From Methanomicrobiales archaeon (GTDB lineage: Archaea > Halobacteriota > Methanomicrobia > Methanomicrobiales > Methanospirillaceae), in NCBI GenBank assembly GCA_025358115.1, contig JANYKQ010000079.1, positions 1 through 34,554 on the forward strand: a stretch of 34,554 bases of DNA, given 5' to 3'. The position numbers and the translations under genes were made by a program. Position 1 is the stretch's first letter, and every line of letters begins with the position of its first letter. The notes under the pieces were generated by a model that was not told the origin of the DNA, did no database searches, and saw nothing but the letters and a program-made list of their open reading frames with translations. Shown in pieces: positions 2 through 15,080 of this stretch.

Positions 2-2509
2 AAGGATGAAAAGACCATCCGGCTCTACCGCGACCTGTACAAGGTACCGCAGAACGTGCTGGATGAGTTTGTCGATCCGCTGACCATTGTCCGGCACTTT
101 GCCGGCGAATACCAGCGGGTCATGACGGCCTGCGGGCTCTCTATCGACTGGCGCAGGCGGTTTACCACGGTCGACCCGACCTACAGCAGGTTCATCGAAT
201 GGCAGTGGAAACATCTCTTTGAGGCGGGCCACGTCATCAAGGGCGTGCACCCGGTCCGGTACTGTACCGTGGATGACAACCCGGTCGGCGACCACGACCT
301 GCTCGAAGGGGACAAGGCCGAAGTCGTCAAGTTCACCCTCGTGATGTTCCGGTACGGCGATGCCTTCATCCCTACCGCAACTCTCCGCCCCGAGACCATC
401 CATGGCGTGACCAATCTCTGGGCCAACCCAACCGTTACTTACGTAAAGGCGCTCGTTGACGGCAAGGCCTGGATCGTATCCAAAGAAGCAGCCGAGAAAC
501 TCGCCCTCCAGGACCACACTGTTGAGATCAGGGAAGAGATCCCCGGAAAGGATCTGATCGACAAGAAGGTCTCCCACCCGCTCTGCGGTGAGATCATCAT
601 TCTCCCCGCGGAGTTCGTGGACCCCGACATGGCCAGCGGTCTCGTCATGAGCGTTCCCGCCCATGCACCGTTTGACTACATTGCGCTTCGCGACCTCCAG
701 CAGGCCGGAAAATATACTCAGATCAAGCCGATACCGTTGATCAAAGTCGAAGGCTATGGCGAGTGCCCGGCCCAGTTTGCCGTAGAGAAAGCCGGCATTG
801 CCAACCAGATGGACAGCCGGATGGATGCCCTCACGCAGGAGATCTACTCCGCAGAATTCTCGAAAGGCAAGCTCTTCGAGAAGTACGGCGGAAAGCCGGT
901 CCGGGTTGCCCGGGACGAAGTCGGCCTCCTCATGATCGAGAAGTACGATTCGGCTATCATGCACGAGTTCGACCAGCGGCCCGTCATCTGCCGGTGTGGC
1001 AACAAGGTACGGGTCAAGATCCTGCACGACCAGTGGTTCCTGAAGTATAGCGACCCGGCCTGGAAGAAACAGGTGAGCGACCACCTCGGGGATATGTCTC
1101 TCGTGCCCTCCGAAGTCCGGACCGAGTTCGATCGCACGGTGGACTGGCTCAAGGACTGGGCCTGCACCCGCCGCGTGGGACTCGGCACCCGCTTCCCGTG
1201 GGACACCACCCAGCTGATTGAGCCCCTCTCGGACTCGACTATCTACATGGCGTACTACACGATCGCCCACAAAATCCGCGAGATCGATCCCAAGCTCCTC
1301 ACGCCCGAAGTCTTCGATTACATCTTCCTCGGGAAAAAATCCGATGACCTGCCCGAGAAGAAGAAACTCGATGTGATGCGCAACGAGTTCCTTTACTGGT
1401 ACCCGTACAATTACCGGTTCTCGGCCAAGGATCTCATCTCCAACCACCTCACCTTCCAGATCTTCCACCATGTCTCGATCTTCCCGAAGGACAAACTCCC
1501 GGCGGGCATGGTTGTATTCGGCATGGGTCTTTTGAACGGGGCCAAGATGTCCTCGTCGAAAGGCAACGTCTTCCTGCTCGAGGATGCCGTGGCAGAATTC
1601 GGTGCCGATACCGTGCGGATGTTCCTCATGGGCAGCGCCGAGCCGTGGCAGGACTTTGACTGGCGCAATGAACTGGTCATCTCGACCAAGAAGCAGATCG
1701 AGCGGTTCTATTCGACCATTATGGAGATGAAGGATGCCGGAGGCGAACCGCACGATATCGACAAGTGGCTGGTAAGCCGGCTCCAGTCGCATATCGAGCG
1801 GACCACCGATGCGCTCAACAACTTCCAGACCCGGCAGGCACTCCAGGAAGCCTACTTCGGGATCGAGACCGACCTGAAGTGGTACCGCCGAAGGTTACCG
1901 GAGAACTGCGATGGCAGCCGGGAACTCCACACGCTCTGCTCGGTCTGGATCCGGCTCCTTTCGCCGTTCATCCCGTTCACGACCGAGCACCTGTGGAAGG
2001 AGATGGCAGGAGAAGGACTTGTCTCGTTCGCCCCCTGGCCGGTTGTGGACAAGAAACTCTTCAGCCCCCGGGTCGAACTTTCCGAAGAACTCCTCTCCCG
2101 CACGGTAGAGGATATCGAGTCGATCATGAAGCTGATCCAGATCACGCCCAAGGCCATCACGATCGCTCTTGCGCCGGAATGGAAGCACAACATCTTCCGG
2201 ACGATTGCCACAGCATCGGATCGCACCACCGTGATCAAGGAGATCATGAAGGATGACTCCATGAAGAAGCGGGGCAAGGATGCAACAGATGCCGCCAAGC
2301 AGTGCACCACGCTCATCCACCGCCTGCCTCCGCAGGTTGTTGCACCACTGGCTATGGACCCGATCAATGAGCGGGACGTATTCGAATCTGCCCGGGCTTT
2401 CCTCGAACAGGTCTTCGGGGTGCCGGTCCATATCACCGATGCTGAAGATGGTGTGCACCTGAAAGCTGCAACCGCATTGCCGTTCAAGCCGGCTATTATT
2501 ATTGAATAA
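2..2509 (+). CDS. leuS: Leucyl-tRNA synthetase, 5'-truncated by window edge
   Basis: Cytoplasmic class I synthetase that charges tRNA-Leu and edits mischarged tRNA. The frame is open from base 2, so the N-terminus, including the HIGH signature, lies before the window; 835 codons are visible, and archaeal LeuRS usually has about 930-970 residues. The CP1 editing domain is recognisable by the threonine-rich TLRPETIHGVTNLWANP segment near nt 380-430. The catalytic KMSKS loop appears as KMSSSKGN near nt 1545-1566, followed by the typical FGADTVRMFLMGSAEP and WR elements. An anticodon-binding helical domain and an archaeal C-terminal extension follow, ending in ALPFKPAIIIE. The stop is followed at once by a T-rich tract that probably terminates transcription. 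Diverged copies of this tail recur downstream at 5590 and 13391. Identification is firm; only the start is unseen. Confidence 0.97.
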   Translation, partial: KDEKTIRLYRDLYKVPQNVLDEFVDPLTIVRHFAGEYQRVMTACGLSIDWRRRFTTVDPTYSRFIEWQWKHLFEAGHVIKGVHPVRYCTVDDNPVGDHDLLEGDKAEVVKFTLVMFRYGDAFIPTATLRPETIHGVTNLWANPTVTYVKALVDGKAWIVSKEAAEKLALQDHTVEIREEIPGKDLIDKKVSHPLCGEIIILPAEFVDPDMASGLVMSVPAHAPFDYIALRDLQQAGKYTQIKPIPLIKVEGYGECPAQFAVEKAGIANQMDSRMDALTQEIYSAEFSKGKLFEKYGGKPVRVARDEVGLLMIEKYDSAIMHEFDQRPVICRCGNKVRVKILHDQWFLKYSDPAWKKQVSDHLGDMSLVPSEVRTEFDRTVDWLKDWACTRRVGLGTRFPWDTTQLIEPLSDSTIYMAYYTIAHKIREIDPKLLTPEVFDYIFLGKKSDDLPEKKKLDVMRNEFLYWYPYNYRFSAKDLISNHLTFQIFHHVSIFPKDKLPAGMVVFGMGLLNGAKMSSSKGNVFLLEDAVAEFGADTVRMFLMGSAEPWQDFDWRNELVISTKKQIERFYSTIMEMKDAGGEPHDIDKWLVSRLQSHIERTTDALNNFQTRQALQEAYFGIETDLKWYRRRLPENCDGSRELHTLCSVWIRLLSPFIPFTTEHLWKEMAGEGLVSFAPWPVVDKKLFSPRVELSEELLSRTVEDIESIMKLIQITPKAITIALAPEWKHNIFRTIATASDRTTVIKEIMKDDSMKKRGKDATDAAKQCTTLIHRLPPQVVAPLAMDPINERDVFESARAFLEQVFGVPVHITDAEDGVHLKAATALPFKPAIIIE

Positions 2510-2520
2510 TTTTCTTTTTT
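2468..2520 (+). repeat. leuS-tail direct repeat, copy A (in leuS)
   Basis: This is the last 13 sense codons of leuS, the TAA stop and the following TTTTCTTTTTT tract. By eye it matches copy B (5590-5642) at about 42 of 53 positions without gaps, and copy C (13391 onward) at a similar level over its shorter span. Copies B and C read as the same peptide in translation. The T-tract is also the likely leuS terminator. Confidence 0.75.
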
Positions 2521-2727
2521 TTTAGACAGATGACAGATAAGCCAGACTCATTGTTTTTTCAAAAATAGAACCGGTAAATTCTGGCCATATTTTTCTCATG
2601 AATATGAATCCGGATTAATTGATGCAGGAATGATTTCCGCAGGTTAAAATATAATCAGACTGAAAATATTTGATTATACCATATTGACAAGACGAGATGC
2701 CGAATATGTTTCCGTTTTGATTAAAGG

Positions 2728-5583
2728 ATGATCGTCTTGATTTCCCAACGGGTTTTTTTATTTCATGTCGTGATTTTAATATTTTTATTAGTTAGCATAA
2801 CAACACCGGTATCGGCAGCCATCCATACCCTGAACCCCGGGGATTCGATCCGCCAGAACATTACCGATGCAACAGCCGGAGATACAATCATCCTGAACCC
2901 GGGGACCTATACCGAGAATGGGATCACGGTTGACAAGAACATCAGGATACAGGCCAACACTTCATACAGTCATACGGCTGCCGAAACTATTATTGATGGT
3001 GGAAATCACCAGATCATGACCGTATCTGGCGGTGTCAACCTGGTCATAGACAGCCTGACCCTGCAGAACGGATTGAGCGTAAACGGGGGGGCTATCGCTA
3101 ATTCCGGCACCATCACCATCTCTGATTCTGTATTCACCAGCTGCTCGGGGGCCAATGGCGGCGCGATCTTTAACAACAATGGTGGAACCCTCATCATCTC
3201 TTCCACCACATTCTCTGACGGTTCAGCAACCAATGGAGGTGAAATATTTAATAACGGTGGCACCCTCACCATCTCGTCCACAACATTCTCCGACTGCACT
3301 GCAACCAACGCTGGCGGTGCGATCTACAACGATGCCGGTACTCTCACCATATCCTCCACAACGTTCTCCGGTTGCTCGTCTGTCGCTGGCGGTGCGATCT
3401 ATACCGATGCCGGCACTCTCATTATCAGCACTACAACGTTCTCCGGTTGCTCGGGCGGCAATGGGGGTGCAATCTTAAGTATATCGGGTTCACTGACCAT
3501 ATCATCCACTGCATTCATCAAATGTTCAGCTGATGTGGATGGTGGTGCAGTCTATGCTTCCACATCCACACTCCTCGTAGATCATTCTTCAAGCTTCAGA
3601 AACTGCACAGCCGCAGCGGGGAGAGGCGGTGCAATCAAGTATGCCGGAACCAGCTTTACCATTAACTCCGCTGACTTTGTCAACTGCTCAACATCATTAA
3701 GCGAGGGGGGGGCGATCTTTGCGAATAAAGGCAGCATCACTTCTGCTACATTCACCGACTGCTCAGCACCAACTGGTGGAGGCGCGATCTTTTTCAACGC
3801 AGGAACCAGCACCCTGGACAAATGTATTTTTACCAGATGTTCAGCAGTCTCCGGTGGAGCGGTCTTTAATAACTGGAGCAAACTCACAATCTCGGATACT
3901 TCATTTATTTCCTGCTCTGGTACCAATGGCGGTACAATTTTTAACAATGGCAGCACCCTCATCATCTCCTCTTCCACCTTCACCAACTGTTCAGCAACCA
4001 CTGATGGCGGAGCAATTTATATTGGATCTGGTGGGATCGGTGTGACCATCACATCATCAACATTCACTGGCTGCACGGCAGTAAACAGCGGTGGTGCAAT
4101 CTATTCTGTTGCTCCGGCCGCCAGTATGAGCACCGTTGTGAACTTCTCCCGGTTTTACCAGAACACAGCAGGTTCGGGTGCAGCCATATACAACACCGGT
4201 GGCGTCAGCGCTTCGTACAACTGGTGGGGTACAAATACCATCCTTCCAGCGTATGTAAGTGGAACCGGAACAACAACCTCCGGCCCATATCTTATGCTCA
4301 GCACCACAACAACCTCACCATCCATCACTTCGGCCCAGACATCCCTGATAAAGGCATATCTCACGTATGATTCGACTGGCATCAATACTCGTACGGAGGG
4401 CCATATCCCGAACGGCACCCCGGTAATGTTCACTATCTCCAGCGGCCCCGGCTCACTCTCAGCGGCTGCCAATACCACGACGCTCGGGGCTGCCGAGACC
4501 ACGTTCATTCCTGACGGTGCCGGCACCACCGTCATCAACGCAATCGTTGACGGTCAGACGGTCAACACCACGGTCACGGTGCCCGGGCCGGTATTCACCG
4601 GCACGCCCAGGTCCGGTACCGCACCGCTCTCGGTCACCTTCACCGACGCCTCGGTGGGATCGCCGACCATGTGGAACTGGTCGTTCGGCGATGGGCAGTG
4701 GTACAACACAACGGTTGCCGCAAACCCGGTGCATACCTATACGGGTGCCGGGACGTACACAGTGAGCCTGACAACAACTATCAGCGGGACACCCTGCACG
4801 CACTCCCGGGCCGGATACATCAGCGTGTCCAACCCCTCCCCCGCGTTATCATCATCCGGCGGCGATGACGCACCGGGCGGGACATCCGGCACCGGCAATA
4901 CCGGACACCAGCAGCTCGCTCCCCTGGAGAATGGGGTGAACGTCAACGTGGGCGGGAACTCCGGGATCACCAGTGTCCTTGTCATCGGTAATGGTCTCGA
5001 TAACCTTATCGTCACCGGTACCGTGCGGCCTGGGCCGGGCACGGGTGTTTCACCGGCACCTGGAACCACATACCAGTACATCGACCTCGTCCCGGCCCAG
5101 TTCACCTCCATTGACGGTGCAACAATCACCTTCACCATCCCGGTCTCGTGGCTGGAAGAACACCACATTCTTCCGGAGAGTATTGTATTATACCACTTCA
5201 TCAACGGAGCCTGGGTAGCTCTCCCGACAACCGTTGTAACAACCGCAAACGGGATGTTTACGTTCGCTGCAACCACCCCTTCGTTCTCGCTCTATGCAAT
5301 CAGTGGCATGCCACATGCCGCTTCCACCTCAAACCAACAGGTCCAGACCTTTGGCGATCTTGCAGGAGCACCCGCAACCAGCCCGGCACCGGCCAGGCTT
5401 GCACCACCGGAACCGCAGACCACAACCGTGCCGGCACCGACCGTGAAACCTGACGGGGGATTCCCGGTTCCGGTCCTTGTAATTGCCATTGCCGGTATCA
5501 TCATCGTTGCTGCCGGCGGATTTATGGTCCGGCGCTGGTGGATCCGGAGGCAGAACCCGGCGCTTTTCAAGGAGTATGACTGA
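2728..5583 (+). CDS. Secreted Pmp-repeat/parallel beta-helix, PKD, anchored surface protein
   Basis: A 951-residue exported protein of unknown specific function, probably a cell-surface adhesin or S-layer-associated protein. Residues 1-30 form a signal peptide ending PVSA. Residues about 119-500 contain 14-15 tandem units of the form GGAI(F/Y)NxxGTLTISxxTFxxC, which match the GGAI repeat of chlamydial-type polymorphic outer membrane proteins and predict a right-handed beta-helix; the stretch closes with the NosD-like YNWWGTN. A Big_1-like Ig domain (about 525-612) follows, then a PKD domain (about 619-704, with WNWSFGDG). Next comes a region like the PGF-pre-PGF domain (about 735-865), a Pro/Ala/Thr linker, and a membrane segment (about 912-935) with an RRWWIRRQ stop-transfer tail ending NPALFKEYD. 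Start ATG has AAAGG close upstream. An A/T-rich TATA candidate lies near 2644-2655. A leuS-tail repeat begins seven bases after the stop codon. Confidence 0.9.
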   Translation: MIVLISQRVFLFHVVILIFLLVSITTPVSAAIHTLNPGDSIRQNITDATAGDTIILNPGTYTENGITVDKNIRIQANTSYSHTAAETIIDGGNHQIMTVSGGVNLVIDSLTLQNGLSVNGGAIANSGTITISDSVFTSCSGANGGAIFNNNGGTLIISSTTFSDGSATNGGEIFNNGGTLTISSTTFSDCTATNAGGAIYNDAGTLTISSTTFSGCSSVAGGAIYTDAGTLIISTTTFSGCSGGNGGAILSISGSLTISSTAFIKCSADVDGGAVYASTSTLLVDHSSSFRNCTAAAGRGGAIKYAGTSFTINSADFVNCSTSLSEGGAIFANKGSITSATFTDCSAPTGGGAIFFNAGTSTLDKCIFTRCSAVSGGAVFNNWSKLTISDTSFISCSGTNGGTIFNNGSTLIISSSTFTNCSATTDGGAIYIGSGGIGVTITSSTFTGCTAVNSGGAIYSVAPAASMSTVVNFSRFYQNTAGSGAAIYNTGGVSASYNWWGTNTILPAYVSGTGTTTSGPYLMLSTTTTSPSITSAQTSLIKAYLTYDSTGINTRTEGHIPNGTPVMFTISSGPGSLSAAANTTTLGAAETTFIPDGAGTTVINAIVDGQTVNTTVTVPGPVFTGTPRSGTAPLSVTFTDASVGSPTMWNWSFGDGQWYNTTVAANPVHTYTGAGTYTVSLTTTISGTPCTHSRAGYISVSNPSPALSSSGGDDAPGGTSGTGNTGHQQLAPLENGVNVNVGGNSGITSVLVIGNGLDNLIVTGTVRPGPGTGVSPAPGTTYQYIDLVPAQFTSIDGATITFTIPVSWLEEHHILPESIVLYHFINGAWVALPTTVVTTANGMFTFAATTPSFSLYAISGMPHAASTSNQQVQTFGDLAGAPATSPAPARLAPPEPQTTTVPAPTVKPDGGFPVPVLVIAIAGIIIVAAGGFMVRRWWIRRQNPALFKEYD

Positions 5584-5589
5584 GCAGGG

Positions 5590-5642
5590 GCAATGGCACT
5601 GACATTCAGGCCGGCGATCATCATCAAATAATTTTCTTTTTT
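5590..5642 (+). repeat. leuS-tail direct repeat, copy B
   Basis: A diverged copy of the 3' end of leuS lies just after the 951-residue protein's stop. Read from 5590 it translates as AMALTFRPAIIIK-stop, against ATALPFKPAIIIE-stop in leuS. Many of the differences fall in third codon positions (the three Ile codons ATT to ATC, and GCT to GCG), with Lys to Arg among the changes. The stop and the T-tract are retained. The copy is in frame with the preceding gene but separated from it by the stop. It has no start codon of its own that would suggest independent expression, and it may act as a terminator. Confidence 0.75.
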
Positions 5643-6077
5643 CCGTAACCTCCGGGTTTAACACCGGTTTTTCAGTAAGATCAGGATGTGTCCCAGACAT
5701 CAGACCGGGTTGTTTTCCCCATGACTGACGATCCCAGGCACGCAGGATTACCAGGGGGGGAAGACACCGGGTTACCGCAAAAAAAACGAAATTAATCTTT
5801 CATTTCAAAACCTTAAAACTTATTTTAACCGCGTATCGTTCATCCCCGGCAACACAGAAGATATAATTTCGTTTTGCAAAAAGTGCAATACCGGGAAAAA
5901 TATATTTCAATCGCCATCCGGAAAAATGCCCATCATGGTATGATGCCCCCGGTGTGATACCATGACGGGTGAATAAGATGAAGGACATTTTCTCCATTGG
6001 TTTTGCCCGATCGTTGTTCTCCCGATAACTGTCATCCCAGTGTATGGCATCCCTGAGAACAACCAAGGAGTGATTCT
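5643..6077 (+). promoter_or_regulatory. Intergenic leader with TTGCAAA-type motif and TATA box
   Basis: No gene is supported in this stretch. It holds the motif TTTTGCAAAAAGTGCAA (5872-5888), followed about 8 nt later by a TATA-like AAAAATATATTT (5896-5907). That would place transcription start near 5930 and leave a leader of about 145 nt before the next gene. Similar TTGCAAA motifs lie near the promoters of other surface genes in this window. A short minus-strand open frame (5800-6066) has no protein-like features. Confidence 0.5.
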
Positions 6078-7418
6078 ATGAAAGAAACAAAAAAAAGGAC
6101 AGGAAAACTTTTCTCTGTGGTTTTTACCATAGCAGTGATCTGCCTGATGGCTGCCGCGATAATTCCCGGCGCTGAGGGCGCTTCGAACGTAAATCTTGGA
6201 ACATCTGGTAATTTCGTGATTCTGTCACAATCAGGAATCACCAATATTCCTACATCTGCTCTTACCGGAGATGTTGGGACGAGTCCTATCACCGGTGCAT
6301 CAATTACCGGATTAAGTTGTACAGAAGTGACCGGGACAATATATACGGTCGATGCTGCCGGCCCGGTATGCCGGGTGATAGACCCGTTCTTACTGTCAGT
6401 GGCTGTAGGGGACATGCAGACCGCGTACACGGATGCCACCGGGCGACCGATGGAATACCTTAACATTGGAGCTGGTGGAGAAATTGGCGGGCTGACACTC
6501 GCTCCGGGTACGTATACGTTTACTACTCCCGTGACAATATCGACAGACCTCACCCTTGCGGGAGGCCCCAATGATGTATGGATATTCCAGATACCCGATA
6601 CTCTCAATATTGCCTCCGGGGGTGTCGGCACGGGTAAGCAGGTTATCCTCAGTGGTGGCGCACAGGCAAAGAACATCTACTGGCAAGTGGCTGGTGCAAC
6701 GACACTGGGAACATACTCTGTGTTCAATGGAAATATTCTGGATAAAACAATGATTGCGCTACAAACCGGTGCAACCTTACACGGAAGAGCATTGGCGCAG
6801 ACCGCGGTTACCATGGACCAGAATACATTGACTATCCCGGAAATTATTCTTCCGCCAACACCGACACCTACCCCGACTCCAACACCAACACCAACACCCA
6901 GACCAACACACACACCAAAGCCCTGCAGTGATTTCATTACCGGTGGCGGATGGATCAATGACAAAGCAACCTTCGGCGTCTCCGGTGGCATCAAGAACGA
7001 CAAGCCCTGGGGTGATCTCTCCTTCAATGACCATAATGGTGTGAAGGTCAAGAGCACGAGCGTAACCGCTTACAGCGTAATCGATCCCGTGACACGTAAG
7101 ATCGAAGGTATTGCCAGGGTCAATGGTAAAGGATCCTTCGCTTACACGGTGATTGTTGCTGACAATGGCGAGCCCGGCCGCACCAGGGACACCTTCAGTC
7201 TGCAACTCTCGAACGGTTACAGCGCTTCAGGCACCTTAAAGGGCGGCAACATCCAGCTCCACAAGGAATGCGGAAGGCCGTATGATCACGACGACAAAGA
7301 GAGATATGATGATAAAAATGAGAGAGACGGTCATAATAACTGCGGGAACGATCGTTTGAATGAGAGGGATCTCTTTGACCAGTTCCACAACAATAACAAT
7401 GACCGGAACAACCACTAA
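6078..7418 (+). CDS. DUF3494 (ice-binding-like) secreted adhesin with charged tail
   Basis: A 446-residue exported protein. A signal peptide covers about residues 1-36, after a KETKKRTGK basic start. Residues about 38-255 match the DUF3494/ice-binding-like fold, with LGTSGNFVILSQSGI, the TGDVGTSPITGASITG element, the VGDMQTAYTDATGR motif and the terminal GATLHGRALAQTAVTMDQNTLT. This fold binds ice in cold-adapted microbes but is widespread as an adhesin domain in organisms not exposed to ice, so ice binding is not claimed. A (Pro-Thr) repeat linker leads to a second domain starting CSDFITGGGWINDK (about 282-395), a beta domain found in many secreted proteins. The last 50 residues are rich in Asp, Asn, Arg and His. 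No C-terminal membrane anchor is visible. GGAGTGATT lies 5-6 nt before ATG, supporting the start. It is paralogous to the next gene. Confidence 0.9.
   Translation: MKETKKRTGKLFSVVFTIAVICLMAAAIIPGAEGASNVNLGTSGNFVILSQSGITNIPTSALTGDVGTSPITGASITGLSCTEVTGTIYTVDAAGPVCRVIDPFLLSVAVGDMQTAYTDATGRPMEYLNIGAGGEIGGLTLAPGTYTFTTPVTISTDLTLAGGPNDVWIFQIPDTLNIASGGVGTGKQVILSGGAQAKNIYWQVAGATTLGTYSVFNGNILDKTMIALQTGATLHGRALAQTAVTMDQNTLTIPEIILPPTPTPTPTPTPTPTPRPTHTPKPCSDFITGGGWINDKATFGVSGGIKNDKPWGDLSFNDHNGVKVKSTSVTAYSVIDPVTRKIEGIARVNGKGSFAYTVIVADNGEPGRTRDTFSLQLSNGYSASGTLKGGNIQLHKECGRPYDHDDKERYDDKNERDGHNNCGNDRLNERDLFDQFHNNNNDRNNH
6855..6918 (+). repeat. Pro-Thr coding microsatellite (CCNACN repeats)
   Basis: Tandem CCA/CCG/CCC-ACN hexamers encode the (Pro-Thr)n linker between the DUF3494 domain and the FITGGGWI domain. 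Such tracts are prone to length change by slippage and probably act as extended spacers. Confidence 0.8.
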
Positions 7419-7595
7419 AAACTACTATTTTTTTTTATTTTCCCTCTTTGTAAGATCATTGAAAAATATTGGCGGAGATCGCTGGCAGCAGGACCCGGCC
7501 CCCACGGCCGACACCACAGCCTCTTTTCACTGCACAAAGGTGTTGTTCTCCCGCCGGAAATATTTCACCGGAGATCCTAAACAAGGGGTCTGGTC

Positions 7596-7631
7596 ATTGC
7601 AAAAAATGGAATAATCCGGGGAGTATATCTC
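7596..7631 (+). promoter_or_regulatory. Candidate promoter of the second DUF3494 gene
   Basis: ATTGCAAAAAATGG (7596-7609), a relative of the TTGCAAA motif, is followed about 12 nt later by a TATA-like GAGTATATCTC (7621-7631). The start codon at 7670 is about 40 nt further on. The arrangement resembles those at 5872-5907 and 11061-11036. Assignment is by eye. Confidence 0.4.
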
Positions 7632-7669
7632 CCGGTCCAGCATTAAGAGTGACCATTGACGAGTATCCC

Positions 7670-9394
7670 ATGGCCATGATTAAAAAAAGGACCAGAAAAA
7701 TACCCACGGTTGTTTTTACTCTAGCCCTGCTTTTTCTGATGGCCGGCTCAATAATTCCCGGCGTGAATGGCGCAGACCCGGTGGATCTCGGGACTGCCGA
7801 AAATTTTGCGGTCCTGGCCAAATCGGCGATCACCGATACCTTATCATCATCTGTTATTTCCGGCGATGTTGGACTGAGTCCGACTACCGGTGCAGCTATT
7901 GTCGGATTTGATTCATGTACACAAGTGTCCGGGGCCGGGAAGATAATTTACAAGGTCGATGCTGCGGGCCCGGTATGTGCTACGAACAACCCAGCGTTAG
8001 TGGGCACCGCGGTAGCCGATATGGAAACCGCGTACTCAAATGCCAATTCAGGAACAGCCGATTTTCCGGTCATCGGTGGCGCAGATCTCGGCGGGCGGAC
8101 ACTCATCCCTGGGAACTACTCATGGACGGGGGCCGTGACCATAGGAAACGATGTCACGCTGGACGGCCAGGGCGATGCGAATGCGGTCTGGATCATCAGG
8201 ACAGCAGGTGCTCTCACACTGGGCGCGGGTAAAAAGATTATCCTCATAAACGGTGCACAGCCAAATCACGTATTCTGGACAACCGCCGGCTATACGGAAC
8301 TGGGAGCCGATTCTGTTTTCAACGGGAATATCCTGGCGGCCGGGTATATTACTGTCAACAATGGCGCAACCCTGAATGGAAGAGCATTGGCCCAGACAGC
8401 AGTTACCCTGGAAAAGAATACGGTGTCCGTCCCCGTGCCGAGAGTGGGGCCGGGTGTGGATTTCACCTACACGAACCATACCGGGACTGCACCTCTCACG
8501 GTGGCCTTTACGGATATTTCCAGTCATGATCCAACTGCAACGATAACCAGCTGGGCCTGGGACTTCGATAATGACGGTACTGTTGACAGCACCCTCCAGA
8601 ACCCGGTCTACCTGTACGATACGGCAGCAATATACACACCAAACCTGACCGTTACTGATAGTTACGGGGCAGTAGCTTCAAAGATCGATACAGTTACCGT
8701 GTACCAGGCCCCGGTGGCAGATTTCTCATCGAGTCCTGCAAGCGGACCAACATATCTTACTATTTCATTTACCGATCTCTCCACAACGGATCCTTCTGCA
8801 ACAATAACAAGCTGGGCATGGGATTTCGACAATGATGAAATTATTGATAACACCACCCGGAACCCGCAATACATGTTCTATACCGTAGGAGATCATCCGG
8901 TGAACCTGACCATCACAGATAGTAACGGGGCAACGAGTACCAAAATCGATACAATCACCGTGACTCCGGCAGTAGTGGGAATAACGGTCACAAACGTGCC
9001 CTTTACCCTGGCACTTAATCCGGATATGACCTCAACAAGTACCGATATCCAGTTCTATGTCAATAGTACAACAAACTGGCAGGTTGCAGCCTATGATGCA
9101 GATCCCACCACCAGTGGATTTATGACACACTATGTGACGAATCCAGCGCCGGGGTACGTAATCCCGGCAGTGCACCTCACCCGGCCCTTTATGGTTCGGC
9201 ATAATTTCAATGATCTGTATGAAAATCTCCCCGCCGGCAGCGGTTCAGCCACCCTGATACAATCCGGTACTCCGGAAGAATCCGGCACTGCATACCTGTT
9301 AGGGATCCAGCAGGATGTTACCATGGAAGATTCTGTTCTTCCCGTGAATAATGTCTACCGCATCGTGGTGACACTCACGGTCAGCAGTACCTGA
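7670..9394 (+). CDS. DUF3494 adhesin with two PKD domains and C-terminal WxL-like domain
   Basis: The frame is open from 7469, but the signal peptide (MIKKRTRKIP... ending NGAD) places the start at ATG 7670 or 7676, giving about 574 residues; 7676 would align best with the paralogue upstream. Domains in order: signal peptide (about 1-35); DUF3494 ice-binding-like domain (about 38-235), closely similar to the previous gene (VDAAGPVC, ADMETAY, NGRALAQTAVTLEKNT); two PKD domains (about 250-420), each with a WDFDND signature; and a final domain of about 140 residues ending YRIVVTLTVSST. That domain corresponds in shape to the small minus-strand protein at 11152-11688, with NWQVAAYD matching its WSIAVSD. 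It has no transmembrane anchor, so attachment may go through the C-terminal domain, as in large WxL proteins. Expected location is the cell surface. Confidence 0.88.
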   Translation: MAMIKKRTRKIPTVVFTLALLFLMAGSIIPGVNGADPVDLGTAENFAVLAKSAITDTLSSSVISGDVGLSPTTGAAIVGFDSCTQVSGAGKIIYKVDAAGPVCATNNPALVGTAVADMETAYSNANSGTADFPVIGGADLGGRTLIPGNYSWTGAVTIGNDVTLDGQGDANAVWIIRTAGALTLGAGKKIILINGAQPNHVFWTTAGYTELGADSVFNGNILAAGYITVNNGATLNGRALAQTAVTLEKNTVSVPVPRVGPGVDFTYTNHTGTAPLTVAFTDISSHDPTATITSWAWDFDNDGTVDSTLQNPVYLYDTAAIYTPNLTVTDSYGAVASKIDTVTVYQAPVADFSSSPASGPTYLTISFTDLSTTDPSATITSWAWDFDNDEIIDNTTRNPQYMFYTVGDHPVNLTITDSNGATSTKIDTITVTPAVVGITVTNVPFTLALNPDMTSTSTDIQFYVNSTTNWQVAAYDADPTTSGFMTHYVTNPAPGYVIPAVHLTRPFMVRHNFNDLYENLPAGSGSATLIQSGTPEESGTAYLLGIQQDVTMEDSVLPVNNVYRIVVTLTVSST

Positions 9395-10044
9395 TAGTCC
9401 CTTTTTTACCGTCAAAAAATACCGGGATGAAAAACCAGTGTATTTTGCAACCGTGAGGATTGGTGCATCAGACCGGGAAAATTTCCCGGGTACGCCTGTT
9501 CGCGAAAGGGTCCAAAACACCCGGGAATTTATTTGAGGGGGTATTTTTTCCCGGGGTGCATGAAGATTCCCACCCGGTAATATGAGTAATAAGCATCTTT
9601 GCATCAGGGGTCCGCTTCCTGGCGTGAGGTTTTCTCAGGACCTTGTCTTTTCAATACCGGGTATTTTATTGAATTCAAACCATCGGCAGCACTGCGGGAC
9701 CCGATCCCGGAACACCACGACGGGACAGGGTAATGACTCCAGTTCCAACGACCATTGCCCTGGGGACAAGGAGCCGGGGTTACCGTCCGATCCTTTACGG
9801 GCGTTTAAGTGCTGTTGCGGGACGGGGGATTTTGCGTCTTGCAAAGGGAAGCGATTACTCCGACTGACTGATCAAAAGAATGCCTCTTTTCGTGGCCGGT
9901 TGCTGGTTTTGGGCATGGATCCAATTACAAAAACAACACCCGGTAAAACAGATCGTGGAGTAATTGCCTTTTTTAATATATGACCGCAGAAAACTCCCCG
10001 GAAAAAATGAGGGAAAGACTTTCCCTGCACATAAAAAAATGGTT
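9395..10044. other. Gene-free 650-nt stretch between convergent surface genes
   Basis: I see no supported gene. Open frames here (for example 9582-9983 plus and 9299-9604 minus) lack a ribosome-binding site, recognisable motifs or a protein-like composition. The stretch is G/C-rich up to about 9900 and ends with T/A-rich runs near 9968-10041 that could terminate the minus-strand gene. Its length suggests decayed coding DNA, which I cannot identify. Confidence 0.5.
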
Positions 10045-11001
10045 TTATTCGTTCTTTCTCTTCCAGGTCCCAAAGATTACGACCATCATACCCAGAGCGA
10101 GAAGGATCGTTGTGATAGGAACGGGGGCAGGAGCACTTCCGTATTCTCCACTGGTAACGGTAACCTGCGTTGGGGCCAGGGAGGGGCTTTTCACTTCCAC
10201 CAGCGAGGTAGCTGAGTCGAGGAGTGCTCCATTCTCAAGGCTTACTTCCGATTTCACGCTATAAGTTCCCGGAGACAGGGACTTGCCAAGCGAAACATCA
10301 TAGGTAACCGTATTTGTGGGGATAATGGCAAAGACCGACGGATCGGTGCTGGCGGTAGCGGTCACGTTTCCCCCGCTATCCGATACGGTCACGGTATTTC
10401 TGGTGCTATAGTACAGGACATTGCCGGTATTTTTTAAGGAGGTGATAATATGGAGGGGTTTTCCGATAATCGGTTCCGAGGCTTTGATTTCTGATATCGT
10501 ACCTGTCTTCTGGAGATTGGAATTGGCAATGGTGATCATGACCGGGACAGATATTGCGGTAACGTATGCCGTTGTCCCGCTCATGGCGGGGGCATTATGA
10601 AGTGAGATCATGGCATAGCGCCCGCCATCCCCGACATCTTTTGGTATAACGATTGTCGCCGTGATCTTTTTGGATTCCCCGGGGTTCAGGTGAAATGATC
10701 CGGTGTCGAGCGTGATAAAATTCCGGGCAGAGTACGGGCTGGTATCATCTGCCGGGGACAGGGAGGAATAACTCTGATCTGCAGTCTGTCCAAAACCCAG
10801 GACATCGATGGCGATATCCATAGGTACATCGGTCGCCGTTGTACTAACCGTAATGGTATGAGTTACGGTATCCCCGGCATTGACCGTTCCCATATACTTT
10901 GCTCCCACAACATTGATGGCTGATGCCGGACCCGGGCAGACAACCATCAAAAGCAGGATACCCAGCAGGAACAATGGATAAAATCGGTTCATAGTGTACA
11001 T
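10045..11001 (-). CDS. Membrane-anchored DUF916/DUF3324-like (WxLIP-like) surface protein
   Basis: A 318-residue exported protein. The signal peptide (MYTMNRFYPLFLLGILLLMV...ASA) is followed by a beta-sandwich domain (about 29-150) with VNAGDTVTHTITVSTTATDVPMDIAID, HLNPGESKKITATIVIP and GGRYAMISLHNA, which resembles DUF916. A second domain (about 155-265) with GKPLHIITSLKNTGNV and SLSPGTYSVKSEV resembles DUF3324. The protein ends in one membrane helix (PITTILLALGMMVVIFGTW) and KRKNE. In Firmicutes this architecture is the WxL-interacting protein that sits beside WxL proteins; here the small WxL-like gene lies directly upstream. The start was chosen at ATG 11001 because AGGTGAT (11012-11006) is a strong archaeal Shine-Dalgarno four bases upstream; GTG 11010 and ATG 10992 are alternatives. 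Family assignment is by pattern, not by search. Confidence 0.85.
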   Translation of the reverse strand: MYTMNRFYPLFLLGILLLMVVCPGPASAINVVGAKYMGTVNAGDTVTHTITVSTTATDVPMDIAIDVLGFGQTADQSYSSLSPADDTSPYSARNFITLDTGSFHLNPGESKKITATIVIPKDVGDGGRYAMISLHNAPAMSGTTAYVTAISVPVMITIANSNLQKTGTISEIKASEPIIGKPLHIITSLKNTGNVLYYSTRNTVTVSDSGGNVTATASTDPSVFAIIPTNTVTYDVSLGKSLSPGTYSVKSEVSLENGALLDSATSLVEVKSPSLAPTQVTVTSGEYGSAPAPVPITTILLALGMMVVIFGTWKRKNE

Positions 11002-11035
11002 GCTCATCACCTAGAGTTGTCCTATTTGAGAAATT

Positions 11036-11074
11036 ATTTATATAATTCTGCTGTGTCCTGGCAAAATTTGCAAA
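11036..11074 (-). promoter_or_regulatory. Promoter with TTGCAAA-type operator
   Basis: Read on the minus strand, TTTGCAAATTTTGC (11074-11061) is followed by a TATA box (ATTATATAAAT, about 11046-11036) and, about 35 nt later, the start of the WxLIP-like gene. The same sequence forms a perfect palindrome at 11824-11842. This implies the gene can be transcribed independently of the upstream 178-residue gene. Confidence 0.5.
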
Positions 11075-11151
11075 TAGTTTTTTAAAAAGGACTCATGCAG
11101 GAATTTCTTTTAAGAGGACAACACCCTGCGAAATGCGATAAAAAAAAGAGA

Positions 11152-11688
11152 TTATGTTGCTGAAACAGTAAATGTGAGTACTGTCCGGTAGAAATGACCG
11201 CTCCCCACACGGGTATCGGCCGCTTCAATAGTCTGCTGGAAGTAGGGGTAATTGTAAGTGATTCCAGCAATGCCGGTGAACAGTCCATGCGAGGCATCAG
11301 TATTGAGCCACGTTGCCCCATCATTACTTACCTGAAATACATCAGTCAGAATCTTTCCGCCGGCAGTATAGCCAGCCCCATCCCATTCAGCCATTTTTCC
11401 TAATGCGGCAGGGTTGGGTTTTCCCGTCGTGGATGCATCAGAGACAGCGATAGACCAGGGCGCATTGGTTGTCACTTTTGTTTGTACCGTATTGGATGTC
11501 GTGTTTACATTCACTCCATTTACCATATCCCCGAATGGATTGGATCCACTTACCTCAAGACCGAGAACCAGCGCGGGATTCCCGGACACATCTGCGGTTC
11601 CTGAGTCGGCAGCAAGCACTCCCGGGGCAAACAGAAGTATGCTGAGCAGCACACTACTGAGAATTAGAATTTTTTTTACCGTTATCAT
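11152..11688 (-). CDS. Small secreted WxL-like domain protein
   Basis: A 178-residue exported protein: signal peptide MITVKKILILSSVLLSILLF...LA, then one beta domain. The frame extends to 11751, but GTGAT four bases before ATG 11688 copies the spacing seen at the partner gene and gives a clean signal peptide, so I chose that start. The mature part begins ADSGTADVSGNPALVLGL. WSIAVSD (Trp78) matches the proximal W-x-L/I-x-V motif of WxL domains. The C-terminus, YRTVLTFTVSAT, occupies the place of the distal Y...WxL motif with FTV instead of WTL. The protein therefore looks like a degenerate small WxL protein. In bacteria such domains bind cell-wall polymers, but the archaeal ligand is unknown. 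It pairs with the DUF916-like gene 150 nt downstream and shares its last domain with the adhesin at 7670-9394. Confidence 0.82.
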   Translation of the reverse strand: MITVKKILILSSVLLSILLFAPGVLAADSGTADVSGNPALVLGLEVSGSNPFGDMVNGVNVNTTSNTVQTKVTTNAPWSIAVSDASTTGKPNPAALGKMAEWDGAGYTAGGKILTDVFQVSNDGATWLNTDASHGLFTGIAGITYNYPYFQQTIEAADTRVGSGHFYRTVLTFTVSAT

Positions 11689-11777
11689 CTTCATCACTTC
11701 TTTTCTCATCCTTCCCCTTTTGAAAGACATGCCACTGTCATTGTTGGACATAATAAACCGGTTCCTGTAAAATAAAA

Positions 11778-11842
11778 TTTATAATAAAAACAGATAATTC
11801 TAAAAACAAATTGTGCAACACGTGTTTGCAAATTTTGCAAAC
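11778..11842. promoter_or_regulatory. Divergent control region with perfect TTTGCAAA palindrome
   Basis: GTTTGCAAATTTTGCAAAC (11824-11842) is a perfect inverted repeat of nine bases around a central T. TTGTGCAA (11811-11818) lies next to it. On the minus strand a TATA box (TTTTTATTATAAA, 11790-11778) serves the 178-residue gene. On the plus strand GTATTTTTACG (11852-11862) could serve the PKD gene starting at 11914. The palindrome is the likely binding site of a dimeric regulator shared by both directions. Confidence 0.5.
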
Positions 11843-11913
11843 GGGCAGCCGGGTATTTTTACGCAGATTTTCTACTAGACTAGTACTACTGTTCGCAATT
11901 TAGGGCTGGCATT

Positions 11914-13386
11914 ATGAAGAATAAACCGGTATCCCATTGGATGAAGACAGGCGGGCTCCAGAAGCAGATCCTTTTAATGGGAATTCTTGCTTTGCTTATC
12001 ATACCCCAGTTGGTTTCCGGGGGAACTACCGGCACTGCAGACATCATTGGAAATATTATCCAGGCCCCCGTTGCCCGGTTCACCGCAAATATTACCGGGG
12101 GAATTGCCCCCCTTGTTGTACAATTCACCGATCTCTCCGACAGGGATCCTTCATCCTGGAACTGGGAATTTGGGGACGGGATAACATCCACCCTCCGGAA
12201 CCCGACTCACACGTATGCAAGCGGGATATATACCGTTAACCTGACCGTGTCAAACGCAGCAGGGAACTCCACGCGGGTATCGTTCCATTACATAACCGTG
12301 CTCCCGGCTCAGGCTGGTTCTCCGCAGTCCCCCTCATCATCACCCGGGGGAAGCAGTGGCGGGGGATTCCAGGTACCTGGCCGGTTAAGTCCCCCGGCAC
12401 AGGTTGTCGTGCCGGAACAAAACCCACCGGGAGGCGTTCAGCGTGCACCGGTACAGATCAGCCAGGGATCACCGACCATTGATCTCTCCCCCTACAGCCA
12501 GTTTATGTATACTGATCCCTCATGCAGGCCATACGCAATTATCCAGAGAATCCTGGCGGAACGGACGGGAGCCATCATCTCAGTTTCCGGAAAAACTATT
12601 CAGATCATCCGCCCTGATTTTACCCTGAGCATAACTGCTGCATCCATCACCGAGACAGACGGGATCATCAGGGCGGACAATATCCAGTCAATCCTGATTG
12701 TATCGGCACCCTTTGAAGCCGATATAAATGGTGTGGGACGGGTTACCTCATCGTTCACTGCTGATATCGCATCCTGGCCTTCGGATGCTTGGCTTACGGT
12801 GACCTTTGACGACCCGGTAAACCCCGTTGTGGCTGAAACATTCCAGCGTGCAGTAGCCCACGAGGGTGGGGAAATTCAGGCTATTGCATATACACTGACG
12901 GTCCAAAAAACAAACATGGTTTCGACTGCGTGCAGTTGCTCCTATTCACTGGGCGTCTATACGCTGAACATTCAAAAAACAGATAGCACGGCGATACACT
13001 CCGCAACCATAACGATGAGTGCCCCCGCTGAATGGGTGAATGCACACGGCGGCATCAATGCCATCGTGATCGGCAGGATTGGCGATGATCAAAAATGCAC
13101 AATCCTGAAAACCTCTTTTTCAGGATATGATCCGAACGGGAACATGAAATTTGTTGCTGAGTCTCCTGAAGGGCTCTCGGTATTTGGCCTCATTGCAACC
13201 AGGACGCCACTTCAAAGCCCGGGCACGAATGGCATGTTCAACCCGGTCGGGGGATTCGGATTCGCAATCCTGGTTCTCCTTATCGTTATGCTCATAACCG
13301 GTTACCTTATCTGGAGAAAACGAAGAACCCAGCGTAAAGATACCTCACCACCAGCAGAAAAAAGTAATAATCTCCTGAAGCGGTAG
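11914..13386 (+). CDS. Secreted PKD-domain surface protein with C-terminal membrane anchor
   Basis: A 490-residue exported protein. The signal segment (about 14-36) is preceded by a basic region. The mature N-terminus, GTTGTADIIGN, echoes GTADVSGN of the small WxL-like protein. A PKD domain covers about 50-130 (WNWEFGDGITSTLRNPTHTY). A Ser/Gly/Pro-rich linker follows (about 135-190), then a long beta-rich region (about 195-435) whose last third resembles the PGF-pre-PGF type domain of the 951-residue protein (TITMSAPAEWVNAHGG, FGLIATRTP). A membrane helix (about 450-470) is followed by WRKRRTQRK. It is divergent from the small WxL-like gene and shares its TTTGCAAA palindromic control region. 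Its function is unknown; it is probably a surface or cell-envelope component. Remnants of other genes lie directly downstream. Confidence 0.87.
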   Translation: MKNKPVSHWMKTGGLQKQILLMGILALLIIPQLVSGGTTGTADIIGNIIQAPVARFTANITGGIAPLVVQFTDLSDRDPSSWNWEFGDGITSTLRNPTHTYASGIYTVNLTVSNAAGNSTRVSFHYITVLPAQAGSPQSPSSSPGGSSGGGFQVPGRLSPPAQVVVPEQNPPGGVQRAPVQISQGSPTIDLSPYSQFMYTDPSCRPYAIIQRILAERTGAIISVSGKTIQIIRPDFTLSITAASITETDGIIRADNIQSILIVSAPFEADINGVGRVTSSFTADIASWPSDAWLTVTFDDPVNPVVAETFQRAVAHEGGEIQAIAYTLTVQKTNMVSTACSCSYSLGVYTLNIQKTDSTAIHSATITMSAPAEWVNAHGGINAIVIGRIGDDQKCTILKTSFSGYDPNGNMKFVAESPEGLSVFGLIATRTPLQSPGTNGMFNPVGGFGFAILVLLIVMLITGYLIWRKRRTQRKDTSPPAEKSNNLLKR

Positions 13387-13390
13387 AGCC

Positions 13391-13442
13391 GCGATGGTAT
13401 TGCCGTTCAGGCCGGCGATCATAATCGAAAAATCCTCTTTTT
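13391..13442 (+). repeat. leuS-tail direct repeat, copy C
   Basis: A third copy of the leuS tail begins four bases after the PKD gene's stop, in another frame. Read from 13391 it gives AMVLPFRPAIIIEK. The leuS stop TAA is changed to AAA, so the frame runs on into TCCTCTTTTT. It is closer to copy B than to leuS in several codons (ATG, AGG, GCG, ATC). Confidence 0.72.
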
Positions 13443-13444
13443 CA

Positions 13445-13483
13445 GGCAGGTAGAATCCGGTGCTGTTTCTGGAGTACGATTGA
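13445..13483 (+). pseudogene. C-terminal remnant of a Pmp-repeat-type surface protein gene
   Basis: Codons 13448-13483 read R-stop-NPVLFLEYD-stop and align with RQNPALFKEYD-stop, the extreme C-terminus of the 951-residue protein. CAG has become TAG and most third positions differ. Only about 12 codons remain. The order here, leuS tail and then gene tail with the body missing, fits an internal deletion of a once complete second copy. Confidence 0.6.
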
Positions 13484-13811
13484 CCTTCAGAACAGGTACC
13501 AGGAATTTATATTTTGTTTATATCCTGCTGGGGATATAATCCGGAAATCCGATCACGATTGCAGCATGGAAACCGGTGGCAAACCGGTGAAAAACCCCGG
13601 ATAACCGCTCAACACTTCCGGAGAGCAGCGATAGAAATTCTGCTGATTCCGTTTCCATTCTAGTCAGCAGGGCCAAATCCGGTGTTGCTAAAAAAATGTT
13701 GTATCACCATTCTGGCATGCAATTTTTATCAGATAATTCCGGATAGCCCGGTACCTTTTTTCATCCACAAGCAAGATATTCTCATACCGATCATCATTGT
13801 TGGAGAAGAAC
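13484..13811 (+). other. Gene-free leader of the beta-propeller gene
   Basis: No gene is supported. The stretch contains A/T-rich segments (TTTATATTTTGTTTATATCC near 13506-13525, and GCAATTTTTATCAG near 13720-13733) that could be TATA elements. It also contains a short direct repeat of AAACCGGTG. The ribosome-binding site GGAGAAG precedes ATG 13812. Confidence 0.4.
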
Positions 13812-15080
13812 ATGCCAGCGGGATTTCGGATTTACCTTGCGATCACTGCACTGCTTTTGGTCAGTTGCCTGGCGGGAGGAGTTTCCGCCGCCAGTATCGG
13901 CACCGAATGGAAAGAACGCGTACCGGTTGAGGGTTCATTATTTTCAGGTGTCATGCTCTCAACGGACAGTTCAAAGGTTTTTACCGGGGGCAATAATATG
14001 TATTTCCGGAGCTGGGACGGTGAACAGCACTGGGGTGGGCGAACCGGGTTTATCTCTACCATGAGCACCGATGGCAATTATGTAGTGTACGGGGAGGGGA
14101 AAACTCTGGTGTTGCTCGATAAATACGGTGTAGAGATGTGGTCCCGAAACATGGGGTACCAGGTTCGTGCAGTGGCAATTTCCGCAACCGGCTCCTTTGT
14201 CATCTCTGCAGACGATCAGGGGAATATCAATACGTGGACAAATAACGGTGAGTTTTACGCAAGGAACAAAACGGACCTGGTAAAACAGATCGCTATATCA
14301 CCAATCGATACGCTGGTAGTTACCACAACCGAGAGCGGGCTGAAATTTTTTACACCAACCCTTGATCCCGTCTGGTCGGACACAAAAAATGGCAGTGTTG
14401 ATTCCGATATTATCTTTTCCAGGGATGGTTCCACCATCATCACTTCCGGAGGAAAACGGGTCTCTTCACACACAAAGAGCGGACAGATCAACTGGATGAA
14501 CGACATAACCAAAGAGGCGATCACCGGCACGGCCTGCTCAGATGACTGTTCTGTTATTGTAACGGGCAGCCAGGACGGCAGGGTCACGGCCATTGACCGG
14601 TACGGCAATGTCCACTGGACATATCCGGCGGGACAATGGACAAATGCAGTTGCGATCTCGCGGGATGCCCGCGTCATTGTTGCAGCAGGAATAGACAAGA
14701 ACCTCTATGTCCTGGATCATGCGGGAAAACTCCTGGCTGAAAAACAGATGAATACGATCATCCATCCCCGTTCACTCGCAGTAAGCGCTGACGGCATGCG
14801 CATTGCGGTTGCCGATGAAAATGCCCTCAACGGGCTGACACTGTCTCTTGAAGATAGTGGCGACCAGGTAACCCTGATACCGAGAACATCGGCAAGAATT
14901 ACTGAGACCCCGGCACCCTTACCTGCAACCGGGACAATTGTAATTTCACCATCGCTCACGTCGCTGCCGACAACATCTGTACCGGTAACTCCGACTCCCC
15001 GATCATCTCCTGGCCCGGTCACGGCAATCCTTGCAATGGGAGTCGGGGTATCACTGGTGATGTGGGGAAGAAAATTCTAA
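13812..15080 (+). CDS. Exported WD40/PQQ-like beta-propeller protein, membrane-anchored
   Basis: A protein of 422 residues. The signal peptide (MPAGFRIYLAITALLLVSCLAGGVSA) is followed by about seven repeated four-strand blades covering residues about 30-355. They are marked by motifs such as VFTGGNNMYFRSWDG, VAISATGSFVISADDQGNINTW and VIVTGSQDGRVTAIDRYGNVHW, typical of WD40/PQQ-like propellers. A Thr/Pro linker (about 365-400) leads to a final hydrophobic helix (ITAILAMGVGVSLVMW) and GRKF, which anchors the protein. GGAGAAG upstream of ATG 13812 fixes the start; a TTG five codons earlier is less likely. Such propellers usually act as interaction scaffolds, and no enzyme motif is visible. It converges with the zinc-ribbon gene, whose stop is 23 nt away. 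Confidence 0.85.
   Translation: MPAGFRIYLAITALLLVSCLAGGVSAASIGTEWKERVPVEGSLFSGVMLSTDSSKVFTGGNNMYFRSWDGEQHWGGRTGFISTMSTDGNYVVYGEGKTLVLLDKYGVEMWSRNMGYQVRAVAISATGSFVISADDQGNINTWTNNGEFYARNKTDLVKQIAISPIDTLVVTTTESGLKFFTPTLDPVWSDTKNGSVDSDIIFSRDGSTIITSGGKRVSSHTKSGQINWMNDITKEAITGTACSDDCSVIVTGSQDGRVTAIDRYGNVHWTYPAGQWTNAVAISRDARVIVAAGIDKNLYVLDHAGKLLAEKQMNTIIHPRSLAVSADGMRIAVADENALNGLTLSLEDSGDQVTLIPRTSARITETPAPLPATGTIVISPSLTSLPTTSVPVTPTPRSSPGPVTAILAMGVGVSLVMWGRKF

Follow-up and report, generated by a model that had tools for sequence, protein, structure and literature searches.

The window analyzed here is a 34,554-nt stretch of DNA from a Methanomicrobiales archaeon (contig JANYKQ010000079.1, positions 1 to 34,554 of the forward strand). 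It opens within leuS, the gene for leucyl-tRNA synthetase, and the 3' end of this gene recurs downstream behind genes for surface proteins. A repeat search in the window grouped the leuS end (2464–2519) with two further stretches (5586–5641 and 13387–13442) in one repeat family, and each of these two copies is 77% identical to the leuS end over 56 nt. A 22-nt core, allowed up to three mismatches, has exactly three matches in the window against a mean of 0.04 in shuffled sequence, and three matches were reached in 0 of 100 shuffles. These results confirm the three leuS-end stretches, in the same orientation, that an earlier note had read from the letters of this DNA, and they place the similarity far above the level of shuffled sequence at which the note would have been refuted. 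The homology runs from approximately 30–45 nt before the leuS stop codon through the stop and the T-tract. The genes ahead of the two copies (2728–5583 and 11914–13386) both encode PKD domains and end differently. In the genome to which the window belongs (70% complete), the same core matched the three sites of the window and one site on another contig, with 3 mismatches, and its reversed control gave zero matches. A calibrated 61-nt sequence model of the leuS end (R1, built from 16 sequences and without structure) gave the three tails 64.0, 57.0, and 55.5 bits (E ≤ 1.3e-16), scores that are not independent since all three belong to its training set.

The earlier note had also proposed to look for further copies near leuS. 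We found extra copies in relatives, described below, and in the window a fourth, strongly decayed remnant of the leuS end at around 13707–13742, which the earlier note had not reported. Its position was predicted by synteny with relatives whose site is empty. The sequence CCATTCTGGCATGCAATTTTTATCAGATAATTCCGG corresponds to a decayed leuS end and lies just ahead of window DNA matching the DNA that follows leuS in relatives. When it was aligned with the leuS ends of relatives, 0 of 300 shuffles equaled its score for each of G043, G062, and G052, and 14 of 300 did so for G064. In R1, the next-ranked match of the window falls at 13719–13739 and is weak when taken alone (E 0.41; the fifth match has E 0.83). 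Between copy 3 and this remnant, the codons NPVLFLEYD followed by a stop (13454–13483) look like the leftover of another surface gene. Decay is greatest in the outermost tail, and copies 2 and 3 score alike. Read in this way, the window thus appears to record at least three insertion events.

We compared the locus with the leuS loci of 40 relatives, taken from a family-wide scan of 108 genomes for the leuS-end pattern (41 loci with the window); genus-level comparisons covered 39 genomes of Methanoregula. A beta-propeller gene is the first open reading frame (ORF) past leuS in 9 of the 41 loci, and further conserved genes come next in most of the longer ones. From 307 nt past copy 3 (13739 on), the window matches DNA that starts 3–12 nt past leuS in G062 (72%) and G043 (68%). 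Similarly, in the complete genome G068 the DNA behind the copy aligns from its first base with the DNA right behind leuS in G069 (69% over 620 bp). With that of G070, the alignment starts at base 50 (70% over 566 bp), and neither of these two genomes has the 485-aa TIG gene that G068 has inserted. The flank of a G071 copy at 6341 matches the post-leuS DNA of G069 and G070 over 112 bp, and that of the copy at 11096 matches the post-leuS DNA of G065 (64% over 481 bp). Genomes with an uninterrupted junction between leuS and its neighbor, which the earlier note had suggested seeking, therefore exist for the window (G043, G062) and for G068 (G069, G070). In both cases the gene end is duplicated at the far boundary in the same orientation, and the right flank lies directly at the gene end in relatives.

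To count copies across the 41 loci, we used a weight matrix of the leuS end, with the reversed and complemented sequence as a control (maximum 11.0 bits over 1.22 Mb); this stricter run replaced a first, relaxed one whose threshold was too low. Thirteen forward matches exceeded the control maximum, as did one reverse-strand match (11.1 bits, G040). Two of the forward matches were doubtful and left out (G036 at 8650, 14.7 bits; G023 at 15121, 12.6 bits). The remaining 11 copies lie in 7 of the 41 loci (window, 2; G036, 2; G040, 1; G047, 1; G056, 1; G068, 1; G071, 3), and 11 of 11 are downstream of leuS on the same strand. R1 gave 52 matches in 37 of the 39 genus genomes and added a copy in G052, located on a separate contig that continues into the usual right-hand neighbors of leuS. 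Extra tails linked to leuS are thus present in 8 of the 39 genomes, all on the downstream flank of leuS and in its orientation. Five of the 52 matches lie away from a leuS end or a known island: one on G047:C136, real and far from leuS, one on G052:C32, which is the leuS flank, and three weak ones that were not counted (G064 twice, G042 once; E 0.0017–0.0065). In a wider set of 76 leuS loci, the three that score at least 52 are all already-counted Methanoregula, and the best of the others (34) stays below the reverse-strand maximum (41). On the leuS tree, the genomes bearing copies are scattered: the 7 that it includes give 7 label changes against a shuffled mean of 6.6; therefore, the insertions were repeated, transferred, or often lost. 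The bin G012 (L067, L068) holds two different complete leuS genes of different clades, suggesting a mixed bin.

The copies share a common anatomy. In 8 of the 11, the tail starts 3–33 nt past the stop of the preceding gene, taking the nearer of two alignments (six at 3–12 nt, one at 25, and one at 33), and the genes ending there encode a surface protein, a Fic protein, or an AIM24-family protein. The other three start 62 nt, 128 nt, and 195 nt past a stop; the last is the third G071 copy, whose preceding gene is unclear. Ahead of the tail that starts at 62 nt, another gene end in frame (DFEEYD and a stop) is seen by eye at a distance of about 4 nt. The left borders within leuS are mostly at about −31 to −45, with others at −89 (G047) and at −100 and −252 (G036) and one G071 fragment at −19; in a fixed-core test they cluster near −31 to −45, with others near −100 and −250. 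Behind most copies there is a T-rich tract. The interval from leuS to the first copy, or from one copy to the next, contains one gene or a few. Surface proteins with PKD, ice-binding, TIG, or FG-GAP-repeat domains make up the cargo in the window, G036, G040, G056, G068, and G071; other cargo includes the Fic protein of G036 and the AIM24-family protein of G047. The sequence RRWW.RRQNPALF, preceded by a membrane helix, forms the C-terminus of many surface proteins in the genus (window 5520–5583; L037, L041, L049, L053, L062–L066, L075) and could possibly serve as a sorting or anchoring signal.

The valS gene presents a similar picture; leuS and valS are both class Ia aminoacyl-tRNA synthetase genes. 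When the last 60 nt of 1362 ORF ends in 1.6 Mb of G068 were sought up to 10 kb downstream on the same strand, the top two were valS (43/60) and leuS (41/60). The opposite-strand control had none at 40/60 or above (best 39), and the upstream control had two (60 and 53). Among the nine best downstream matches, several belong to paralogous or repeated genes; 368694–371814, 613316–613817, and 297639–298278 are not explained in this way. In G068 (34081–35295), the valS tail (about 165–185 nt) recurs 0.84 kb downstream, 26 nt past an 80-aa ORF. The insert consists of a DUF4258 gene and then this ORF, which has no Pfam family and by eye looks like a zinc-finger antitoxin. We then compared by one method the 207-nt ends of leuS, valS, ileS, metG, and aIF2-gamma, all with identities confirmed by NCBIfam, over the 39 genomes. 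A further valS end, 0.8–3.8 kb downstream and on the same strand, was found in 4 of the 27 genomes with a match (G061, G068, G069, and G070). In an alignment of 11 valS loci, these four scored 120–275 against 25–27 on the reverse strand, and the other seven 24–33 against 23–39. The valS insert of G069 is a histidine kinase with a response regulator, and the same ORFs are present in G070. The leuS query matched 34 genomes, of which 6 had a nearby second leuS end; at this threshold the query misses the copies of the window and of G052, so that such counts are lower bounds. No nearby second copy was detected for ileS (0/18), metG (0/37), or aIF2-gamma (0/34), short far matches of 21–31 nt not being counted (0.9 Mb off or on other contigs; ileS in G070, metG in G046, G049, and G051); ileS is the weaker control since its query matched 18 genomes only.

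Taken together, we consider it probable that small gene units have repeatedly been inserted at the 3' ends of leuS and valS by events resembling a single crossover, with the gene regenerated and its old tail displaced. The leuS 3' end would be a recurrent insertion site in Methanoregula, where units of approximately 1–8 kb, often of a single gene, would enter at the last 40–250 nt or so. The incoming unit would bring a matching tail of its own, and a single crossover between this tail and the leuS end would leave leuS intact, with a second tail (gene end, stop, and T-tract) coming to lie beyond the new DNA. Repeated rounds would stack the units, the newest beside leuS and the oldest outermost. 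In the window, the order would accordingly be leuS, unit 1, copy 2, unit 2, copy 3, the unit-3 remnant, copy 4, and the ancestral neighbor (Table 1), and valS would be used likewise. The empty sites, the recurrence in 8 of the 39 genomes, and the valS parallel thus bear out the proposal of the earlier note, in which this surface-protein island was built up of units at the 3' end of leuS.

Table 1. Features of the window around leuS and the putative inserted units
Feature	Position	Strand	Basis and remarks
leuS (leucyl-tRNA synthetase), proposed insertion target	2..2509	+	5' end cut by window start; NCBIfam leuS_arch 2e-268, Pfam; orthologues in all 40 relatives' loci
leuS 3' end with stop and T-tract, duplicated segment	2463..2521	+	R1 64.0 bits
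Unit 1: PKD-domain surface protein, 951 aa, C-terminus RRWWIRRQNPALFKEYD	2728..5583	+	Pfam
Displaced leuS 3'-end copy 2	5587..5643	+	alignment to own leuS starts 6 nt past unit 1 stop
Unit 2: ice-binding-like protein	6078..7418	+	Pfam PF11999 4.5e-63
Unit 2: ice-binding-like protein with PKD domains, paralogue of the 6078..7418 gene	7469..9394	+	Pfam, shared repeats; start codon uncertain
Unit 2: ORF without Pfam family	10045..11010	-	clusters with ORFs of G056 and G067 islands
Unit 2: ORF without Pfam family	11152..11751	-	clusters with ORFs of G056 and G067 islands
Unit 2: PKD-domain surface protein, 490 aa	11914..13386	+	Pfam
Displaced leuS 3'-end copy 3	13386..13443	+	starts 4 nt (weight matrix) to 12 nt (alignment) past stop
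Unit 3 remnant: apparent last codons NPVLFLEYD-stop of a vanished unit-1-type surface-protein gene	13454..13483	+	direct reading
Fourth leuS 3' end, strongly decayed, presumably oldest, at the ancestral junction of leuS and its neighbor	13707..13742	+	anchored alignment to G043 and G062 leuS ends; shuffles; R1
Right neighbor of leuS: beta-propeller protein	13797..15080	+	first ORF past leuS in 9/41 loci, including empty-site G043 and G062

Several observations weigh against this interpretation. A decayed leuS tail lies at another locus in G047, with an alignment score of 64 where shuffles reached 25 at most. The gene beside it, DUF2114, is remote from leuS in three complete genomes (G068, G034, and G035). 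The left borders vary, from about −31 to −252 in leuS (with the one fragment at −19) and from −72 to −179 in valS, unlike those of a fixed crossover site. G067 has an orthologous island in which no tail copy was detected. At valS, the flanks behind the copies gave no clean empty-site match, and in G061 the ORFs ahead of the valS copy (a helix-turn-helix gene and others) are on the opposite strand. The current gene ends look native and not imported, overall identity to relatives being a measure that does not separate foreign from native; by it, neither imported ends in general nor an origin of the copies from another lineage's leuS, which the earlier note had suggested as a possibility, came to light. 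Furthermore, Pfam detected no recombinase in the scanned cargo (7 ORFs of the window units and 17 of relatives' units, those of G052 and G070 not covered). Finally, no PF00589 match was found close downstream of leuS in the 39 genomes; serine recombinases were not searched genome-wide. The off-locus tail of G047:C136 (L076:6295–6401), a decayed 114-nt leuS 3' end, starts with the same altered bases, GGCAGGTGTCCGG, as copy 3 of G036, hinting at a shared mobile ancestor.

Other traces of a recombining agent were also sought. PF00589 genes, among them one for a widespread protein of about 307 aa, are present in 33 of the 39 genus genomes, elsewhere than in the leuS flank, so that a tyrosine integrase beside leuS was rejected among these matches; in G053, two are on the leuS contig, the nearer approximately 6 kb upstream of the leuS start. 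A 198-aa ORF of G071 has a transposase-domain match below the curated cut-off, as a weak transposase remnant would. A virus or plasmid as carrier of the leuS tail was also rejected, on the basis of a single degenerate pattern, strictly set, that had 0 matches in viral contigs (the search did not extend to plasmid and phage records). No Cas1 family was found in the scanned cargo proteins of the window and relatives, and a repeated segment of approximately 40–250 nt does not fit a casposon. Possible mosaic leuS ends were seen in G071 (last 60 nt or so like G068 and G056), where the change may have occurred in G069 and G070 instead, and in G067 (−57 to −38).

As agents of these insertions, we consider two candidates about equally likely: a recombinase, either supplied in trans or lost afterwards, and homologous integration of the RadA type. 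Site-specific integration, in which the gene ends would be attachment (att) sites of a tyrosine or serine recombinase, is a serious possibility that we place a little short of even. It would account for the preference for leuS and valS over ileS, metG, and aIF2-gamma, for the regenerated gene, the fixed orientation, and the tandem stacking. The start of many leuS tails, near −31 to −45, is close to the 40–50 bp given for att sites of archaeal suicidal integrases in a review (PMC8371274), and a source of enzyme could be the PF00589 genes carried elsewhere. It agrees poorly with the lack of a recombinase domain in the scanned cargo and of a PF00589 match close downstream of leuS, with the borders near −100 and −250, and with the lack of matches in viral contigs. 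We hold it to be just as possible, if not quite an even chance, that homology alone drives the process: DNA from a relative with a gene beside leuS would recombine at the shared end, in Campbell fashion or by one-sided homology with illegitimate joining. No special enzyme would be required, variable borders would be explained, and the site preference could come from history, cargo already linked to leuS traveling by leuS homology. The copies of G036 are nearest to its own leuS, above all in the 3' part. However, homology does not by itself explain why the junction is so often a few bases past a stop codon, or why the ileS and metG ends are untouched. It is unlikely, but conceivable, that cassettes tagged with leuS or valS tails circulate between species and are captured and stacked by a recombinase in trans, for which there is no known parallel.

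The earlier note had also considered plain tandem duplication, here of a segment with leuS tail and gene followed by divergence and loss, without imported DNA. In its favor, the copies of G036 and of G047 have residues in common with the leuS of the same genome (IMIE; KASTALPFKPAIVIE), and in G040 the genes flanking the copy have a similar C-terminus. However, the inserted gene is missing in relatives with an empty site and the cargo differs between species; empty sites and unrelated cargo argue for insertion, and we regard tandem duplication as quite improbable. Least credible to us, and very improbable, is a functional terminator-like repeat that would be selected behind genes needing one and spread by gene conversion. 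A T-rich tract behind most copies fits this idea, but coding-frame tails of up to 250 nt or so would be superfluous for termination, the outermost tail has decayed, and only the five R1 matches mentioned above, from the 37 genomes, lie elsewhere. The earlier note had named a common terminator-like repeat found genome-wide as what would refute its reading; this was rejected, since the scans of the own genome and of the genus place the motif almost only at leuS.

Comparable arrangements are known from other systems. The minimal mobile elements of Neisseria are variable gene cassettes between conserved genes, devoid of mobility genes and exchanged by crossovers in both flanks; they resemble the leuS units in lacking such genes, but there is no duplicated gene end there. 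In integrons, each cassette is a gene directly followed by a recombination site, in arrays, and the attC sites are structured. The gene directly followed by a site-like sequence is a common point, whereas the sites here are gene ends and the scanned cargo holds no integrase (integron integrases were not searched genome-wide). Prophage e14 of Escherichia coli carries its own integrase. At icd, it brings a new gene end, and the displaced 163-bp end stays as a pseudo-copy on the far side (PMC6379469). Integration in the 3' end of a protein gene with the displaced end on the far side is thus shared with the arrangement at leuS, but e14 is a 15-kb prophage (PMC6379469), whereas here units of about 1–8 kb are stacked at archaeal synthetase genes and no recombinase was found. 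Protein genes used by archaeal integrases include those for HMG-CoA reductase, a cation efflux protein, and an AsnC regulator, as named in the review cited above, whose text does not contain the words leuS and synthetase (PMC8371274). Islands in tRNA and tmRNA genes (Islander) have their ends marked by a regenerated target and a displaced fragment, and they occur in tandem arrays too. The TIGER/Islander database, in which 43.4% of islands are in protein-coding sequences, requires an integrase gene and excludes islands <2 kb, and would therefore pass over the leuS units (PMC12424338). Closest in spirit without an integrase are vgrG 3' ends in Pseudomonas (PMC11751169), where the gene that follows is exchanged by homology-facilitated illegitimate recombination, with the conserved gene end providing the homology; genes are replaced there, whereas at leuS they accumulate with tail copies. 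Among the papers listed in our literature search, we saw none that describes insertion at the ends of leuS or valS in archaea. What is new here is small units, with no recombinase found, stacked at two synthetase genes of a methanogen genus.

The interpretation favored here, repeated insertion at leuS and valS ends, suggests a route by which variable surface-protein islands of this methanogen genus may be assembled, and the tail of a core gene would serve as a record of successive insertions. One-gene units without integrase at gene ends escape island finders if these demand an integrase or set a lower size limit. The leuS and valS preference makes the identity of an enzyme directly testable. 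Cassette capture, if true, would amount to an integron-like diversification of the cell surface anchored on essential genes.

The tandem PF11999 ice-binding-like surface proteins of the window (6078–7418 and 7469–9394) are mutual paralogues in a methanogen island. In G068, the 3' end of a 1040-codon gene (G068:C1:368694–371814), which by eye looks like a restriction-modification gene, is found again about 2 kb downstream, past a 333-aa ORF, in an arrangement similar to that at leuS.

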